Assembly (NCBI GenBank): GCA_028282325.1
Contig: JANQID010000052.1
Location: 1-64,000, forward strand
DNA: 64,000 nucleotides
Origin: Chloroflexaceae bacterium
GTDB taxonomy: Bacteria > Chloroflexota > Chloroflexia > Chloroflexales > Chloroflexaceae
Direction of reading: 5' to 3'
Below, piece by piece: positions 30,732 through 39,497 of the stretch (position 1 is its first letter; each line of letters opens with the position of its first letter). The notes under the pieces are model-generated. The model did not search any database. It was not told the origin of the DNA and was given only the letters and a program-made list of their open reading frames with translations. The position numbers and the translations under genes are program-made.

Positions 30732-30950
30732 ATGGCGGTCGAGAAAGTGAACGCGTCCAGCAGCTTGGCAGAAGTGATCGATCGTATTCTGGACAAGGGT
30801 GTTATCATCGATGCTTGGGCTCGTCTCTCGCTGGTCGGTATTGAGTTGCTCGCGATTGAGGCTCGCGTGGTTGTCGCCGGTGTTGACACCTGGCTAAAGT
30901 ATGCTGAGGCTGTTGGCCTGACCGCATCGGCCGAAGCTGCTGCCGCTTAA
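30732..30950 (+). CDS. gvpA: Gas vesicle major structural protein GvpA
   Basis: A 72-residue protein that builds the ribs of the gas vesicle shell. It matches GvpA almost throughout: [42 protein letters not shown] and [11 protein letters not shown] are the helix-strand-strand-helix core, with a short alanine tail. It starts at the ATG preceded by GGAGG. It is the first gene of a 15-gene operon. A weak hairpin with six T residues (30961-30980) and a larger hairpin (31012-31068) follow it, which would explain higher gvpA than accessory-gene expression. It is the only canonical GvpA in the window. Confidence 0.98.
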
Positions 30951-30980: not shown

Positions 30981-31011
30981 GCGTTTCGTCGGATTGCTGT
31001 CTTAGGTAAGG

Positions 31012-31068
31012 GGGATGATGACGATGGAATGGTGAAGGTTAATCTCATCTTTCATCGCTCATCATCCC
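31012..31068. repeat. Hairpin between gvpA and gvpC
   Basis: A 15-nt arm at 31012-31026 pairs with 31053-31068, with one bulged base, around a 26-nt loop. It may protect the 3' end of a gvpA-only transcript or act as an attenuator. Confidence 0.6.
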
Positions 31069-31177: not shown

Positions 31178-32509
31178 ATGAGTCTGCATAACGCGATGGA
31201 TGCGCTGAGTCGGCAATTATTGCAGGCATATAAAGAGCGTCAAGAGGCAGTCATAAGTATGCAGACTGCAACGGCGCAACTGCTGGAGGAACTTTACGAA
31301 TCACATCAAGAGATGGCGGTCGAGCAGCGCGAACGGTTGCAGGCGCAGGTGACAACTCTGCGTGACACGGTAGCAACAATGCTAGACGATCATTATGTGG
31401 CACACCAGGAGATGGCGGTCGAGCAGCGTGAGCGGTTGCAGGCGCAGGTGGCAACTCTGCGTGACACAGTGACAGCGATGCGTGATGACCTCAACGCGGC
31501 GCATCAGGAGATGGCGGTTGAGCAGCGCGAGCGGTTGCAGGCGCAAGCGACAAACTTGCGTGACACGGTGACAGCGATGCGTGATGACCTCAACGCAGCG
31601 CATCAGGAGATGGCGGTCGAGCAGCGTGAGCGGTTGCAGGCGCAGGTGGCAACTCTGCGTGACGCGGTAGCAACAATGCGTGATGACCTCAACGCAGCGC
31701 ACCAGGAGATGGCCGCTGAACAGCGCGAGCGGTTGCAGGCGCAGGTGGCAACTCTGCGTGACGCGGTAGCAACAATGCGTGATGACCTCAACGCAGCGCA
31801 TCAGGAGATGGCGGTCGAGCAGCGCGAACGGTTGCAGGCGCAGGTGGCAACTCTGCGTGACGCGGTGACAGCGATGCGTGATGACCTCAACGCAGCGCAC
31901 CAGGAGATGGCGGTCGAGCAGCGTGAGCGGCTGCAGACGCAAGCGACAAACTTGCGTGATACGGTAGCAACAATGCGTGATGACCTCAACGCAGCGCACC
32001 AGGAGATGGCCGCTGAACAGCGCGAGCGGTTATCTGAAGAACGAGAAGAGTTGCGCGCTGCTGTTGCTGCTACGCGGGGTGAATTGCAACAGGATTACAA
32101 TCAAGCTCGGCAAACGTGGCGTGATCTCCAAGCATCAAAACGCCGCTACAATTTCGTAGAAACCACTGAACCCTCGACGGCTTTCGACGTCACGCCGGAG
32201 GCTTCGCCCCCTCCGCTGGCAATGCAGGAAAGCGAACCTCTTTCACCTCCGCCTATGGAGGAGACATCTGTTCCGATAGTTGCTGATGCATCTTCGCCAG
32301 ATGACGTATTAGCTAAATCCGATGAGCTTTTGGCCATTCGTGGGATTGGGCCCAAGATACAGCAACGCTTGAAATCGGCTGGTATTTTTACCCTTGCCCA
32401 GATGGCCGAAGGTACCCCAGAAGACATTCGTCGGGCATTAGGCGATCTAGCTATTGCGGCTAATTTGGAAGATTGGATTGTTCAGGCAAAAGGCTTGTTA
32501 GCCGGCTGA
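31178..32509 (+). CDS. gvpC: GvpC-like protein: eight 33-residue repeats plus helix-hairpin-helix tail
   Basis: A 443-residue protein. Residues 43-306 are eight consecutive 33-residue units, each starting HQEMA(V/A)EQRERL and ending near MRDDLNAA; units 1-7 are nearly identical (99-bp DNA repeats 31304-31996) and unit 8 has diverged. Exact 33-residue helical repeats are the hallmark of cyanobacterial GvpC, which clamps the outside of the vesicle and stiffens it. A Pro/Ser-rich linker (about 325-380) leads to a C-terminal helix-hairpin-helix domain with LLAIRGIGPKIQQRL, absent from classical GvpC. ATG 31178 has ACGGAGG 6 bp upstream; the longer TTG-started form is rejected. Repeat sequence itself is not close to cyanobacterial GvpC, so function is strong inference. 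Confidence 0.8.
   Translation: MSLHNAMDALSRQLLQAYKERQEAVISMQTATAQLLEELYESHQEMAVEQRERLQAQVTTLRDTVATMLDDHYVAHQEMAVEQRERLQAQVATLRDTVTAMRDDLNAAHQEMAVEQRERLQAQATNLRDTVTAMRDDLNAAHQEMAVEQRERLQAQVATLRDAVATMRDDLNAAHQEMAAEQRERLQAQVATLRDAVATMRDDLNAAHQEMAVEQRERLQAQVATLRDAVTAMRDDLNAAHQEMAVEQRERLQTQATNLRDTVATMRDDLNAAHQEMAAEQRERLSEEREELRAAVAATRGELQQDYNQARQTWRDLQASKRRYNFVETTEPSTAFDVTPEASPPPLAMQESEPLSPPPMEETSVPIVADASSPDDVLAKSDELLAIRGIGPKIQQRLKSAGIFTLAQMAEGTPEDIRRALGDLAIAANLEDWIVQAKGLLAG
31304..32095 (+). repeat. Eight 99-bp tandem coding repeats in gvpC
   Basis: The repeat units begin at 31304, 31403, 31502, 31601, 31700, 31799, 31898 and 31997, each exactly 99 bp and in frame. Units 2-7 differ at only a few positions each, while unit 8 is diverged. 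Such homogeneity implies recent unequal crossing-over and predicts copy-number variation between strains, and assembly collapse in short-read data. Confidence 0.92.
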
Positions 32510-32532: not shown

Positions 32533-33480
32533 GTGACAATGATGAACGAAGCACGCGCCAGATTTGATGGCAGTGATAAGACTGTGCTGATGCTGCGCCC
32601 GCGTTCCGATTTTGTGGAAACCGATACCACGCGTGAAGTGATCGTTCGGGCTCTTGCCTATCTGAAAACTGGATTACCTGTTCATTTTCGTGGTCCCGCC
32701 GGAACGGGGAAAACTAATCTGGCATTGCATGTTGCGGCGCAGTTGCAGCGTCCGGTGATGTTGATCGTAGGGGATGAAGCTCTTACGACAACTGATATGG
32801 TGGGTGATTCCAACGGCTATCGGTATCGTAAGGTGGTTGATCGCTTTATCCACTCGGTAACAAAATATGAAGAAGACGCAGTGCAGCGTTGGGTGGATAG
32901 TCGTTTGACCAGCGCCTGCCGGGAAGGCTTTACACTTGTCTATGATGAGTTTACTCGCTCTCGTCCGGAGACCAATAACGTTTTGTTGAACGTATTGGAA
33001 GAGCGGATGCTCATCTTGCCGACGGGAACGCGTCAGGATAATTACATCAAGGTTCATCCCGATTTTCGTGCAATTTTTACCAGCAACTCGCAAGAATATG
33101 CTGGCGTCCATCAAGTGCAAGATGCGCTTAGTGATCGAATGGTATCTATCGATCTCGACTATTATGATCGAGATACGGAAGTTGCTATTACTGCCGCGCG
33201 CTCTGGCCTGGATCATGTGGCGGCTGCCAGGATTGTAGACGTCGTACGTGATTTTCGCGAGACGCGAGACTACGATCAAGTTCCTACATTGCGAGCCTCT
33301 ATTATGATCGCTCGTGTTACAGTTCAACAGGAGATTTATCCTTCCATCCAAAATGGTCGGTTTGTATCGATCTGTCTGGACATCTTAGGCTCCAAAAGCG
33401 AGTTTACCAACGAAGGTCGAGAGCAGCGAGCGCGACGACAGAAACTCATCTTGAGCCTACTTGAACGACACTGTGGATGA
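32533..33480 (+). CDS. gvpN: Gas vesicle AAA ATPase GvpN
   Basis: A 315-residue MoxR-type AAA ATPase needed for vesicles to grow to full width in other organisms. Walker A is GPAGTGKT near residue 55, Walker B is FTLVYDEFTRS, and the sensor region FRAIFTSNSQEYAGVH is present. It begins 23 bp after gvpC. The GTG at 32533 is used, but in-frame ATGs at 32539 and 32542 are equally possible. GvpN is thought to remodel GvpC or GvpA using ATP. The stop codon region overlaps the next gene's possible start, so the pair is translationally coupled. Confidence 0.95.
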   Translation: MTMMNEARARFDGSDKTVLMLRPRSDFVETDTTREVIVRALAYLKTGLPVHFRGPAGTGKTNLALHVAAQLQRPVMLIVGDEALTTTDMVGDSNGYRYRKVVDRFIHSVTKYEEDAVQRWVDSRLTSACREGFTLVYDEFTRSRPETNNVLLNVLEERMLILPTGTRQDNYIKVHPDFRAIFTSNSQEYAGVHQVQDALSDRMVSIDLDYYDRDTEVAITAARSGLDHVAAARIVDVVRDFRETRDYDQVPTLRASIMIARVTVQQEIYPSIQNGRFVSICLDILGSKSEFTNEGREQRARRQKLILSLLERHCG

Positions 33481-35891: not shown

Positions 35892-36203
35892 ATGCCAGAC
35901 CATCGAATGCAACAATCCGTTCAAGCGACTAACCTGGCTGATATATTAGAGCGCGTGCTCGATAAAGGTATCGTGATTGCCGGCGATATTACTATCTCGT
36001 TGGCAGATGTAGATCTGCTGAAGATCAAAGTGCGCCTCCTCGTGGCCTCAGTGGATAAAGCGATGGAGATGGGCATTAACTGGTGGGAGAGCGATCCGTT
36101 TCTTTCTTCTCGCGCCCAACAACTGGAAACAGAGAACCAATTGCTCCGTGAACGGCTTGAACGGCTTGAAGCGGCCATACAGCATAAGGCTCTGGAACAG
36201 TAA
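35892..36203 (+). CDS. gvpJ: GvpJ-type minor gas vesicle protein
   Basis: A 103-residue GvpA-related protein. The GvpA-like core is NLADILERVLDKGIVIAGDITI followed by SLADVDLLKIKVRLLVASVDKA. A C-terminal helical extension (LETENQLLRERLERLEAAI, residues 78-96) forms a leucine-rich coiled coil, the feature that separates GvpJ from GvpA. GvpJ is thought to nucleate the conical caps. AAGGAT precedes the ATG. Its TAA stop shares a base with the ATG of the following AAA ATPase, so the two are translationally coupled. Confidence 0.92.
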   Translation: MPDHRMQQSVQATNLADILERVLDKGIVIAGDITISLADVDLLKIKVRLLVASVDKAMEMGINWWESDPFLSSRAQQLETENQLLRERLERLEAAIQHKALEQ

Positions 36204-38413
36204 TGACCAACGATCAGTCCACAGATGAAACTCGTGACCCGAATGGCAGTATTATGCTCACGGTGGCTGAGGCTCCCGCCAAGGATGTCGGGCGTGGATT
36301 GGCGCGGATTGACCCCAAAGACCTGGAGCGATTGGGTATTGCAATCGGTGATGTAGTAGAGATCGTCGACCAGCAATCTGCCGTAGCGCGAGTAATGCCG
36401 GCGTATGCTGCTGAGCGTGGTCGCGGGTTAATTCAAATTGACGGGATCTTGCGTGCGAATGCCGGCGCGAGTCTGGATGATCGGGTAGCCGTACGTCCTG
36501 TGAAAGTTCAACCTGCTCGCCAGATTGTGTTGTCGCCGATTGAACGCCTCCTTTCGGTTCCCAAGCCTTCCCAGATGCGTTATCTATCGCGTCTGCTCGA
36601 TGGCATTCCGGTTAAAAAGGATAACCGAGTGCGGGTCAACTTATTCGGTTCCCGTGCTCAGACGTTTGCTGTTGTTGAATCCACGCCGGAAGATCCAGTC
36701 ATTATTGGGTCGGGTACGACTATTCGTATTGCCGGCGAGGGCAAAGAGGCGGTTCGTAGCAGCGTAATAACCTATGAGGACATTGGCGGGCAGAGCCGCG
36801 AGTTGCGGCGTGTTCGCGAGATGATTGAACTGCCTCTCCGCTACCCTGAGATTTTTGAGCGCCTCGGTATTGATCCTCCGCGCGGCGTTCTTTTGCATGG
36901 CCCGCCGGGAAGCGGCAAAACGCTTATCGCTCGCGCTGTTGCCCACGAAACCAACGCTTACTATCTCCATGTCAATGGCCCGGAAATCATTGACAAATGG
37001 TACGGTTCGAGCGAAGCGCAACTGCGCAGCATCTTTGAAGAAGCGCGTAAAAATGCTCCGGCGATTATCTTCATTGATGAAATTGATGCGATTGCCCCCA
37101 AACGGGAAGAGATGGGCGGAGAGCGACAGGTGGAACGCCGAGTAGTGGCACAACTCCTGGCGCTTATGGATGGATTGGAGTCGCGCGGCAATGTGATCGT
37201 TATTGCGGCGACCAACATTCCAAATATGTTAGATCCGGCTTTGCGCCGCCCTGGCCGTTTTGATCGGGAAATCGCTATCAGTGTACCCGACCGAGAGGGG
37301 CGGCGGGAGATCCTGGAAATTCATACGCGTGGGATGCCGCTCGCTGATGATGTCTCTCTTGATCGCCTGTCGGCTATCACCCACGGTTTTGTCGGCGCCG
37401 ACCTCGCTGCTATCTGTCGCGAAGCTGCGATGAGCAGTTTGCGGCGTGAATTGCCCCAGCTTGATCTGGCTCAAGTTCATCGCTCCTATGACAAGCTGAT
37501 GAACTTGCAAGTGGCAATGGACGACTTTATATCTGCGCTATCGGAGGTTCAGCCCTCGGCTATTCGCGAAGTGTTTACCGAGGTGCCTGATGTAGATTGG
37601 GCTGATGTCGGCGGGTTGGATTCGGCCAAACAACTGTTGATCGAATCCGTGGAGTGGCCGTTGAATTACGACTGGCTCTTCAAAAAGTCGGGAGTACGTT
37701 CGCCGCGCGGCATCTTGATGTATGGGCCGCCCGGAACGGGCAAGACCTTGCTGGCCAAAGCATTGGCGAAGCAGAGCGAAGTCAACTTTATCGCTGTCAA
37801 AGGACCGGAATTGCTGAGTATGTGGGTTGGCGATTCCGAGCGGCGTGTTCGTGAGGTGTTTCGCAAAGCGAAGCTTGCCGCGCCATGCTTGATATTTTTT
37901 GATGAAATTGATGCGCTCGCGGTTCGCCGCGGCGGCGGCGATGGTGCGGCTGGCTCTGAAGTGTCGGATCGCCTTCTCAGCCAACTTCTCACAGAACTTG
38001 ACGGTATTGAGGAATTGAAGGGCGTGGTTGTCCTGGCAGCGACAAACCGGGTCGATCGGCTGGATCCGGCGTTGTTGCGTCCGGGGCGTTTCGATTTTCT
38101 GGTCGAGATACCATTGGCGGATTTCACAACACGCCTGGCTATCTTCCGTATCCACACGCATGGTATGGCGCTTGAGACAGACGTAGATCTGGAAGCGCTC
38201 GCCGCCGAGTGCGAAGGTTTTTCAGGGGCAGATATTGCCGGATTGTGTCATCGGGCTTCACTGCTCGCCATCCGCGAATATATGCAGATGAATGCGCAGC
38301 GGCTACAAACGCAACGTGAATCATATCAGAGAGGATTCAATGACGCAGACGCCCCCCAACTTTATATCGGACGACGCCACTTTAAACTTGCCCTGGAACG
38401 CGGACGATCCTAG
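36203..38413 (+). CDS. CDC48/VAT-type double AAA+ ATPase in gas vesicle operon
   Basis: A 736-residue homolog of archaeal VAT and eukaryotic p97/CDC48, which unfold and extract proteins. An N-terminal substrate-binding domain (about 1-185; double-psi-barrel look, ARIDPKDLERLGIAIGDVVEI) is followed by D1 with GPPGSGKT near 233 and IIFIDEIDA near 289, and D2 with GPPGTGKT near 509 and LIFFDEIDA near 563. Both arginine-finger segments (RRPGRFDREI, LRPGRFDFLV) are intact, so both rings should be active. It overlaps gvpJ by 1 bp and the following GvpF/L gene by 74 bp. It is inferred to remodel or disassemble gas vesicle proteins. A housekeeping role is the alternative, though its embedding in the operon argues against it. 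Confidence 0.9.
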   Translation: MTNDQSTDETRDPNGSIMLTVAEAPAKDVGRGLARIDPKDLERLGIAIGDVVEIVDQQSAVARVMPAYAAERGRGLIQIDGILRANAGASLDDRVAVRPVKVQPARQIVLSPIERLLSVPKPSQMRYLSRLLDGIPVKKDNRVRVNLFGSRAQTFAVVESTPEDPVIIGSGTTIRIAGEGKEAVRSSVITYEDIGGQSRELRRVREMIELPLRYPEIFERLGIDPPRGVLLHGPPGSGKTLIARAVAHETNAYYLHVNGPEIIDKWYGSSEAQLRSIFEEARKNAPAIIFIDEIDAIAPKREEMGGERQVERRVVAQLLALMDGLESRGNVIVIAATNIPNMLDPALRRPGRFDREIAISVPDREGRREILEIHTRGMPLADDVSLDRLSAITHGFVGADLAAICREAAMSSLRRELPQLDLAQVHRSYDKLMNLQVAMDDFISALSEVQPSAIREVFTEVPDVDWADVGGLDSAKQLLIESVEWPLNYDWLFKKSGVRSPRGILMYGPPGTGKTLLAKALAKQSEVNFIAVKGPELLSMWVGDSERRVREVFRKAKLAAPCLIFFDEIDALAVRRGGGDGAAGSEVSDRLLSQLLTELDGIEELKGVVVLAATNRVDRLDPALLRPGRFDFLVEIPLADFTTRLAIFRIHTHGMALETDVDLEALAAECEGFSGADIAGLCHRASLLAIREYMQMNAQRLQTQRESYQRGFNDADAPQLYIGRRHFKLALERGRS

Positions 38414-39497
38414 CCGTTCGTTTTTTCATTACATCTATGCGATTATTCCTGCTCAGGATCAATTTGTTCTTGATATACACGGTGTTGAGGAAGACAGTGT
38501 GGTAATGTCTACATTGCCATACAATGGATTATCGGCGGTTGTTAGTCAGGCTTCCTGCGCCGATTATCGCGGAATGCAGCGTCAGGATGCCGTGCGCTAT
38601 CTTCTGGCCCATCAGCGTGTCACCGAAGCAGTGATGAATCACTGCCGGTCAAGCGAAGAGTCATTTGCCATCCTGCCGGTGAAATTTGGGACGGTGCTGG
38701 CTGATGAGGCGCGCATGCTTCAGTTGTTGGCATATGGTGCGGCGACGTTTCAGCCTGCGCTTGATGAGCTACGCAATCTGTTCCAGATCGAATTGCTGGT
38801 GTTGTGGGATTTGAACGAAGTCTTTCAAGAAATACGAAACGAACCGGCCATTGCCGAGATTACGGCCAGCATCGCTGCGCGGCCCAACGATGATACAACG
38901 GCGGAACGGATAGTCGTCGGTCAGATGGTCAAGGCCCTGATAGAGAAACGCCGTTCCTCGATCAAGGAGCAGTTTCTCAATCGGCTGCGAGACATAGCGC
39001 AGGGTGTAATCATCAATCCGCCAATGGATGATTCGATGGTGCTGAATCTGGCGTTGTTGTTAGATGATGCGGGGCATAATACTACCGATCAGCTTCTGGA
39101 CGAGCTTGATGAACAGTTTGCCGGTAAGCTAAATATTCGGTCGGTAGGTCCGCTTCCACCGTACAGCTTTGCATCGGTCGATGTGCGAACGCCTTCATTT
39201 GCCGAGATCGAGAATGCCCGTCAGATCCTGGGTCTGGGTGAAACGTCGACGTATAACGATATACGCAAGGTGTATCATCAACTCGCTGGTACGGTGCATC
39301 CTGATCATCATCCTGATAATCCGGAATCGGCTGATCGAATGACCGAGCTGGCACAGGCGTATGATCTGCTTATGACATATGCGGCAAGCCAGCGCAGTCA
39401 GACGGAATCGCCTGAGCACGTTCCTATGCATTGCGATTTTCGCCAATCAGCGGTTGAGCAAACGTTGTTGATTTCAATTCAACGGCAAGAACATTAA
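38340..39497 (+). CDS. gvpF/L: GvpF/GvpL-family protein fused to a DnaJ J-domain
   Basis: A 385-residue protein. Residues about 30-280 are a GvpF/L fold (FFHYIYAIIPAQDQ, SFAILPVKFGTVLADEA, VGPLPPYSFASVDV). The C-terminal segment (about 288-350) is a J-domain: ARQILGLGETSTYNDIRKVY then HPD at 320-322, the tripeptide that stimulates DnaK ATPase. The protein could thus deliver GvpA-related clients to Hsp70. The start at 38340 has GAGAGG upstream and overlaps the AAA gene by 74 bp in another frame. The last ~30 residues are variable. No dnaK lies in the window, so the general cellular Hsp70 would be the partner. Confidence 0.88.
   Translation: MTQTPPNFISDDATLNLPWNADDPSRSFFHYIYAIIPAQDQFVLDIHGVEEDSVVMSTLPYNGLSAVVSQASCADYRGMQRQDAVRYLLAHQRVTEAVMNHCRSSEESFAILPVKFGTVLADEARMLQLLAYGAATFQPALDELRNLFQIELLVLWDLNEVFQEIRNEPAIAEITASIAARPNDDTTAERIVVGQMVKALIEKRRSSIKEQFLNRLRDIAQGVIINPPMDDSMVLNLALLLDDAGHNTTDQLLDELDEQFAGKLNIRSVGPLPPYSFASVDVRTPSFAEIENARQILGLGETSTYNDIRKVYHQLAGTVHPDHHPDNPESADRMTELAQAYDLLMTYAASQRSQTESPEHVPMHCDFRQSAVEQTLLISIQRQEH

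Follow-up and report, generated by a model that had tools for sequence, protein, structure and literature searches.

A strongly diverged GvpC with a helix-hairpin-helix head in the gas-vesicle cluster of a Chloroflexaceae bacterium

Organization of the Gas-Vesicle Cluster

The window, i.e., the whole stretch of 64,000 nucleotides analysed, comes from a 4.6-Mb Chloroflexales genome and carries a full gas-vesicle cluster (Table 1). The cluster begins with gvpA, the gvpC under study, and gvpN, followed by an ORF for a coiled-coil protein, an Hsp20/GvpH-like gene, gvpF, gvpG, gvpO, and gvpJ, and continues with genes for a CDC48-type AAA protein and a GvpF/L-DnaJ fusion, gvpL, a gvpJ/M-like gene, gvpF, and gvpK. 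The order gvpA-gvpC-gvpN is set by gvpN lying 3' of the studied gene, and a place between gvpA and gvpN, taken as one mark of GvpC membership, is the one that this gene occupies. The limits of the gene and its position behind gvpA, both given in an earlier reading of the bare DNA (the sequence-only reading), proved correct, the ATG being immediately preceded by GGAGG.

Table 1. Features of the gvpA-gvpN segment (positions in the window)
Feature	Position	Strand	Remarks
gvpA, shell protein	30732..30950	+	PF00741 56 bits; PRK09371 127.8 bits, above cut-off
Strong RNA hairpin	31010..31068	+	long, perfect-armed; in the gvpA-gvpC gap
Diverged gvpC	31178..32509	+	443 aa; ATG at 31178, stop ends at 32509
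N-terminal cap, aa 1-24	31178..31249	+	first repeat begins at aa 25
Eight 33-residue repeats, aa 25-288	31250..32041	+	register of the Anabaena GvpC repeat
Pro/acid-rich flexible linker, aa 331-372	32168..32293	+	net charge -8; pLDDT mostly under 50
HhH head, aa 373-443	32294..32506	+	PF14520; model; homologous heads in relatives
gvpN	32533..33480	+	TIGR02640 381.6 bits, E 1.8e-114, above cut-off

The gvpA-gvpC gap is occupied by an RNA hairpin. The fold of the segment 30951-31110 has a z score of -5.2, and none of 200 shuffles was equally stable; hairpins are found at the same site in many relatives, with sequences different from that in the window. A consensus scan for an intrinsic terminator after gvpA found none. 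The hairpin possibly lowers the level of gvpC relative to gvpA, and a contribution of this kind to holding gvpC under gvpA would suit a minor coat protein.

Two further genes of the cluster code for multidomain proteins. The fusion gene (38292-39497, + strand) joins a GvpF/GvpL domain (PF06386, E 5.9e-48) to a C-terminal DnaJ domain (PF00226, E 8.8e-11) and is also present in several relatives, and the gene for the CDC48-type double AAA protein (36203-38413, + strand; CDC48_N and two AAA domains) is kept in most relatives. The gvpC-gvpN interval of loci L046, L048, L050, L052, L054, L055, L056, and L062 codes for a conserved protein of ~240 aa (RRIRSAGR.SGS.EVTLP.QL).

The window protein was searched against 100 related genomes. 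Outside the main clusters, each match to the repeat region that was followed up adjoins a gvpA on its 3' side, four of the five in gvpA-gvpC-gvpF mini-clusters lacking gvpN, three of them with gvpO. Repeats in unrelated operons, which the sequence-only reading had named as evidence that would speak against it, were not found among the followed-up copies in the host genome and the 100 related ones. The sole other match in the host genome is weak (E 0.05) and is to another protein, at its HhH tail. The mini-clusters L144, L145, L146, and L147 have the structure gvpA-gvpC(HhH)-gvpF, and in L144, L145, and L147 genes that begin like those of response regulators lie upstream. Genome G028 has both forms of GvpC, the one in its main cluster being headless and the one in a mini-cluster bearing the HhH head.

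Repeat Array

In the HQEMA register the array of eight units covers aa 43-306, with HQEMA at aa 43, 76, 109, 142, 175, 208, 241, and 274, i.e., at a spacing of exactly 33 residues without indels. At the DNA level TRF finds a period of 99 bp (7.3 copies, 87% matches, 0 indels), and a higher-order period of 297 bp as well, in agreement with the exact 33-residue (99-bp) period described in the sequence-only reading. Tandem 33-residue repeats, another mark of GvpC membership, are present here as eight units of exact period. Among units 1-7 the mean dN is 0.069 and the mean dS 0.616, and the resulting ratio of 0.11 indicates that the repeat is constrained at the protein level. AlphaFold2 predicts a single helix spanning aa 2-320; the pTM of the whole protein is 0.23, so the relative placement of its parts is not readable from the model.

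Matches of the repeats to LPP, Apolipoprotein, and COG6_N (weak, Pfam) and to Rad50 and SMC (NCBIfam) were set aside as reflecting coiled-coil composition. A comparison of the helical hydrophobic moment with the contact face of Anabaena GvpC was significant for neither protein and was dropped.

Descent from GvpC

A search with PF01304 gave no match above the cut-off in the host genome and none at its gvpC locus, and the window protein matches neither PF01304 nor TIGR02641, which would be the direct sign of a cyanobacterial-type GvpC. A model of 34 cyanobacterial repeats gives it 8.2 bits, a score reached by 26 of 200 in-unit permutations. As the cyanobacterial models miss the window protein, the claim of homology depends on intermediates, found among counterparts at the same gvp site in genomes of the same family: TIGR02641 (cut-off 18.8 bits) is passed by L148 (32.1 bits), L094 (21.9 bits), and L055 (21.1 bits). 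The profile search with GvpC repeats suggested in the sequence-only reading failed for the window protein itself and succeeded for these three counterparts.

Scored against the cyanobacterial repeat model, counterpart L148 obtains 103.8 bits, and against one made from the window repeats 55.2 bits; none of 200 in-unit shuffles was as good, such shuffles preserving period and composition, losing order, and not serving as a control for every amphipathic pattern; reversed sequences preserve the spacing yet also fail. A model of the L053 repeats gives the window protein 162.7 bits (0.9 when reversed, 55.5 for the best of 500 shuffles) and the cyanobacterial GvpC L101 104.5 bits, which none of 500 shuffles equalled. 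The window protein and L148 align nearly without gaps over 236 aa with 33% identity, and the first unit begins at aa 25 in the window protein, L053, L055, L056, and L062. Homology to GvpC repeats in one register is in this way found in two steps, with shuffle and reversal controls. Since same-locus proteins of the family score above the cut-off of the curated GvpC model and share one register with the window repeats, the window protein is, as judged from sequence comparison, a strongly diverged GvpC and not a convergent one.

It shares with cyanobacterial GvpC (Anabaena flos-aquae; PF01304/TIGR02641) the 33-residue period and its register, the helical rod, the site between gvpA and gvpN, and several contact residues, but it falls below detection by the family models, has other contact residues changed, and carries a linker and an HhH head that Anabaena-type GvpCs lack. 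Other Chloroflexales GvpCs (L148, L055, and L053, and the HhH-headed L054, L057, L058, L078, and L083) have the same locus and repeats, and many have the same head; some are headless, some have nearly canonical repeats, and many contain an extra helical region ahead of the head, absent from the window protein.

Contact Residues and the GvpA Docking Helix

According to Huber et al., nine positions of the 33-residue repeat are conserved (4, 11, 12, 15, 19, 23, 26, 30, and 33); in Anabaena, substitution with Ala at 19, at 11+33, or at 4+12+30 abolishes the stabilisation by GvpC, which docks on helix alpha2 of GvpA (PMC9994262). In the same register the window repeats have His19, Ala23, Gln26, and Leu30 in all eight units, Leu4, Met11, and Gln33 in seven of the eight, and Arg12 in six. 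Compared with Anabaena, Leu4, Ala23, Gln26, and Leu30 are kept, while Phe11 is replaced by Met, Leu12 mostly by Arg, Arg19 by His, and Phe33 by Gln, and site 15 is changed as well. Helix alpha2 of the window GvpA is nearly the same as in Anabaena. The replacement at site 19 can be followed in relatives, His and Arg interchanging there among repeats of a single protein in L055 and L048; in L055 two repeats with His19 are followed by two with Arg19. The retained contact residues, the path taken by site 19 in relatives, and the near-identity of GvpA alpha2 make it very likely that the rod still binds the ribs through an altered set of contacts. Co-variation of site 19 of GvpC with site 52 of GvpA was considered and rejected, as Asp52 of Chloroflexales GvpA accompanies His or Arg without strict pairing.

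Linker and Head of the Window Protein

The C-terminal HhH domain noted in the sequence-only reading is real: the PF14520 match reaches 29 bits against a gathering cut-off of 27 (E 1.5e-6), enough for its assignment as an HhH domain, and the AlphaFold2 model of aa 373-443 alone has five helices and a mean pLDDT of 87.7. In the model of the whole protein a disordered stretch follows the helix and the folded head comprises aa 379-442. The window head is acidic (net charge -2, pI 4.8), and those of L041, L042, and L049 are basic (pI 8.3-10.2). Its nearest solved sequence relatives are the C-terminal domains of the D. shibae protein-O and a complex I subunit, the function of the former being described as obscure (PMC12079452). 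RadA/Rad51 N-domains, NusA AR2, and SAM domains are its relatives by fold, all of them weak (E 0.03 or worse). Homologous C-terminal HhH domains occur in several alphaproteobacterial proteins (RC-LH1 protein-O of D. shibae, the complex I subunit, L21, S2, and the phasin PhaH), whose N-terminal parts are unrelated to the window protein. Another protein of the host genome (L005, 1045-1839; C52), whose N-terminal part is unrelated, ends in a Pro/Ala-rich linker and an HhH tail, which suggests that the tail is modular.

Heads on Other Proteins in the GvpC Position

Across Chloroflexales GvpCs the HhH heads are homologous to one another, with 26 of 74 columns invariant. The head is present at 12 of the Chloroflexales GvpC loci examined, the window included, and absent at 11, when both fused heads and heads encoded by a second ORF beside GvpC (L040, L042) are counted and with L041 lying on a partial contig. 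About half of the examined GvpCs do without a head, which makes it dispensable. The GvpN tree is too weakly supported to fix the position of the window protein or to serve for a count of head gains and losses.

An HhH head (52.5 bits) is also present in L143, an alphaproteobacterial gene located between gvpA and gvpN. In the class-level relatives L059 and L060 a winged-helix-like tail takes the place of the HhH head, with MarR_2 above the cut-off in L059. Profiles of winged-helix tails match gvpA-gvpN proteins of Desulfobacteraceae (L132), Chlorobium (L137), and MAGs labelled as Bacteroidetes (L138, L139, L141); most of the proteins from these three groups have no match to the repeat models, so that they are called GvpC by position only. 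A winged-helix-like tail was found at ten cyanobacterial loci, which themselves built one of the two winged-helix profiles, seven of the ten being found by the second profile too. In at least one case, L076, the tail belongs to the same protein that passes TIGR02641 (21.5 bits); its TrmB match (E 5.5e-5) is below the cut-off. Several of the cyanobacterial winged-helix tails have a pI above 8, and some winged-helix tails are acidic. The winged-helix-tailed proteins (L076, L093, and L111 of cyanobacteria; L060; L132; L141) resemble the window protein in the succession of a helical or repeat region, a Pro-rich or acidic linker, and a small folded C-terminal domain, and differ from it in the type of head. 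The Pseudanabaena-type proteins L069, L073, L125, and L127, likewise in the GvpC position, end in a conserved tail of yet another type (IEQFVVDYVSQLSTNSSLLEVVNDRDTVRDLL...), which the profiles used assign neither to HhH nor to winged helix.

Anabaena-type GvpCs end without a folded head. Folded heads on proteins in the GvpC position look common in a sample consisting of the 80 best GvpA matches, which is hence biased and in which several links are weak and the window head alone was modelled. Their recurrence at the gvpC site in several phyla removes the impression, given by the sequence-only reading, of the HhH tail as a one-off surprise. No description of an HhH or winged-helix tail on GvpC was found in the open-access literature searched, the coverage of which was incomplete.

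Proposed Functions of the Rod and the Head

The gene is probably a diverged gvpC whose product forms a rod along the GvpA ribs stiffening the vesicle, with a head held off by the linker. The 33-residue repeats would form one long alpha-helix following the ribs on the vesicle exterior, with each repeat spanning roughly four GvpA subunits, and a rod so bound would stiffen the shell, while the flexible Pro/acid linker would keep the folded HhH head off it. The sequence-only reading had left deep divergence and convergence side by side; the TIGR02641-positive counterparts in one register speak for the former, and its view of the repeats as unrelated to those of cyanobacterial GvpC gave way once the intermediates L053, L148, L055, and L094 had connected them. 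Convergence, in which an unrelated amphipathic helix would have arrived at a period of 33 residues owing to the ~5-nm span of four GvpA subunits, is in keeping with the lack of a direct match between the cyanobacterial GvpC models and the window protein, but it is scarcely credible given that same-locus intermediates match both sides in one register and that the first unit begins at the same residue in several relatives. Alternatively, the protein may descend from gvpC and no longer hold the ribs tightly, acting mainly as a tether or an assembly factor. The loss of the Phe and Arg contacts essential in Anabaena (PMC9994262) is what this explanation would account for; the exact 33-residue pitch, the dN/dS of about 0.11, the conserved GvpA alpha2, and the His/Arg interchange at site 19 in L055 and L048 make it very unlikely.

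As to the head of this probable rib-bound rod, it could, tentatively, be a protein-binding adaptor tying the vesicle to other vesicles, to the septal region, or to the nucleoid. Cryo-electron tomography of Ca. Viridilinea mediisalina revealed vesicles with 4.8-nm ribs near septa, with filament sheets alongside (PMC7332563), an arrangement for which a positioning role could account, and the GvpC of this organism (L078) bears an HhH head like that of the window protein. HhH and winged-helix folds are frequently DNA-binding, and the head might instead bind DNA, either tying the vesicle to the nucleoid or acting in gvp transcription, by analogy with the C-terminal domain of the phasin PhaF. Such a function, to which the MarR_2 match of L059 and the pI above 8 of several cyanobacterial winged-helix tails would lend themselves, has a precedent in PhaF of Pseudomonas putida, an organelle-coating amphipathic helix with an appended positioning domain that binds DNA and drives granule segregation (PMC3574117). 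The analogy is functional only; the PhaF tail is a histone-like repeat and not HhH, and the window head, like some winged-helix tails, is acidic, its nearest solved relatives being C-terminal domains of membrane-complex proteins of obscure function; DNA is not favoured as its partner, and a DNA-binding head is considered unlikely. Another function conceivable for the head is to join GvpC molecules end to end, completing a helical belt round the shell, and cross-linking has placed the termini of Anabaena GvpC close together (PMC10185304); the SAM and Rad51 N-terminal domains, to which the HhH fold is similar, include some that take part in self-association. However, a disordered linker of some 50 residues is a poor strut and many GvpCs function without a head, which leaves end-to-end coupling rather improbable.

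To tune the acoustic contrast of gas vesicles, engineers alter GvpC. The structural work on its rib contacts consulted here is based on Anabaena GvpC. The window protein shows the extent of drift open to the rib-binding repeat: even positions indispensable in Anabaena have changed, with the 33-residue pitch kept. The recurrence of heads in several phyla suggests a further task for the rod in addition to stiffening. A bolder and rather doubtful generalisation is that GvpC in many phyla is a two-part organelle adaptor, in which a rib-binding rod carries a tethered head that positions or clusters the vesicles, e.g., near the septum, the place at which those of Chloroflexales are observed; the heads in question are HhH in Chloroflexales and an alphaproteobacterium and winged-helix-like in cyanobacteria, Chlorobi/Bacteroidetes, Desulfobacteraceae, and other Chloroflexota. 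Were this so, the Anabaena GvpC studied in the laboratory would be a headless form in which the role of the head is hidden. The recurring heads suggest a further role for the shell coat, perhaps in positioning the vesicles.
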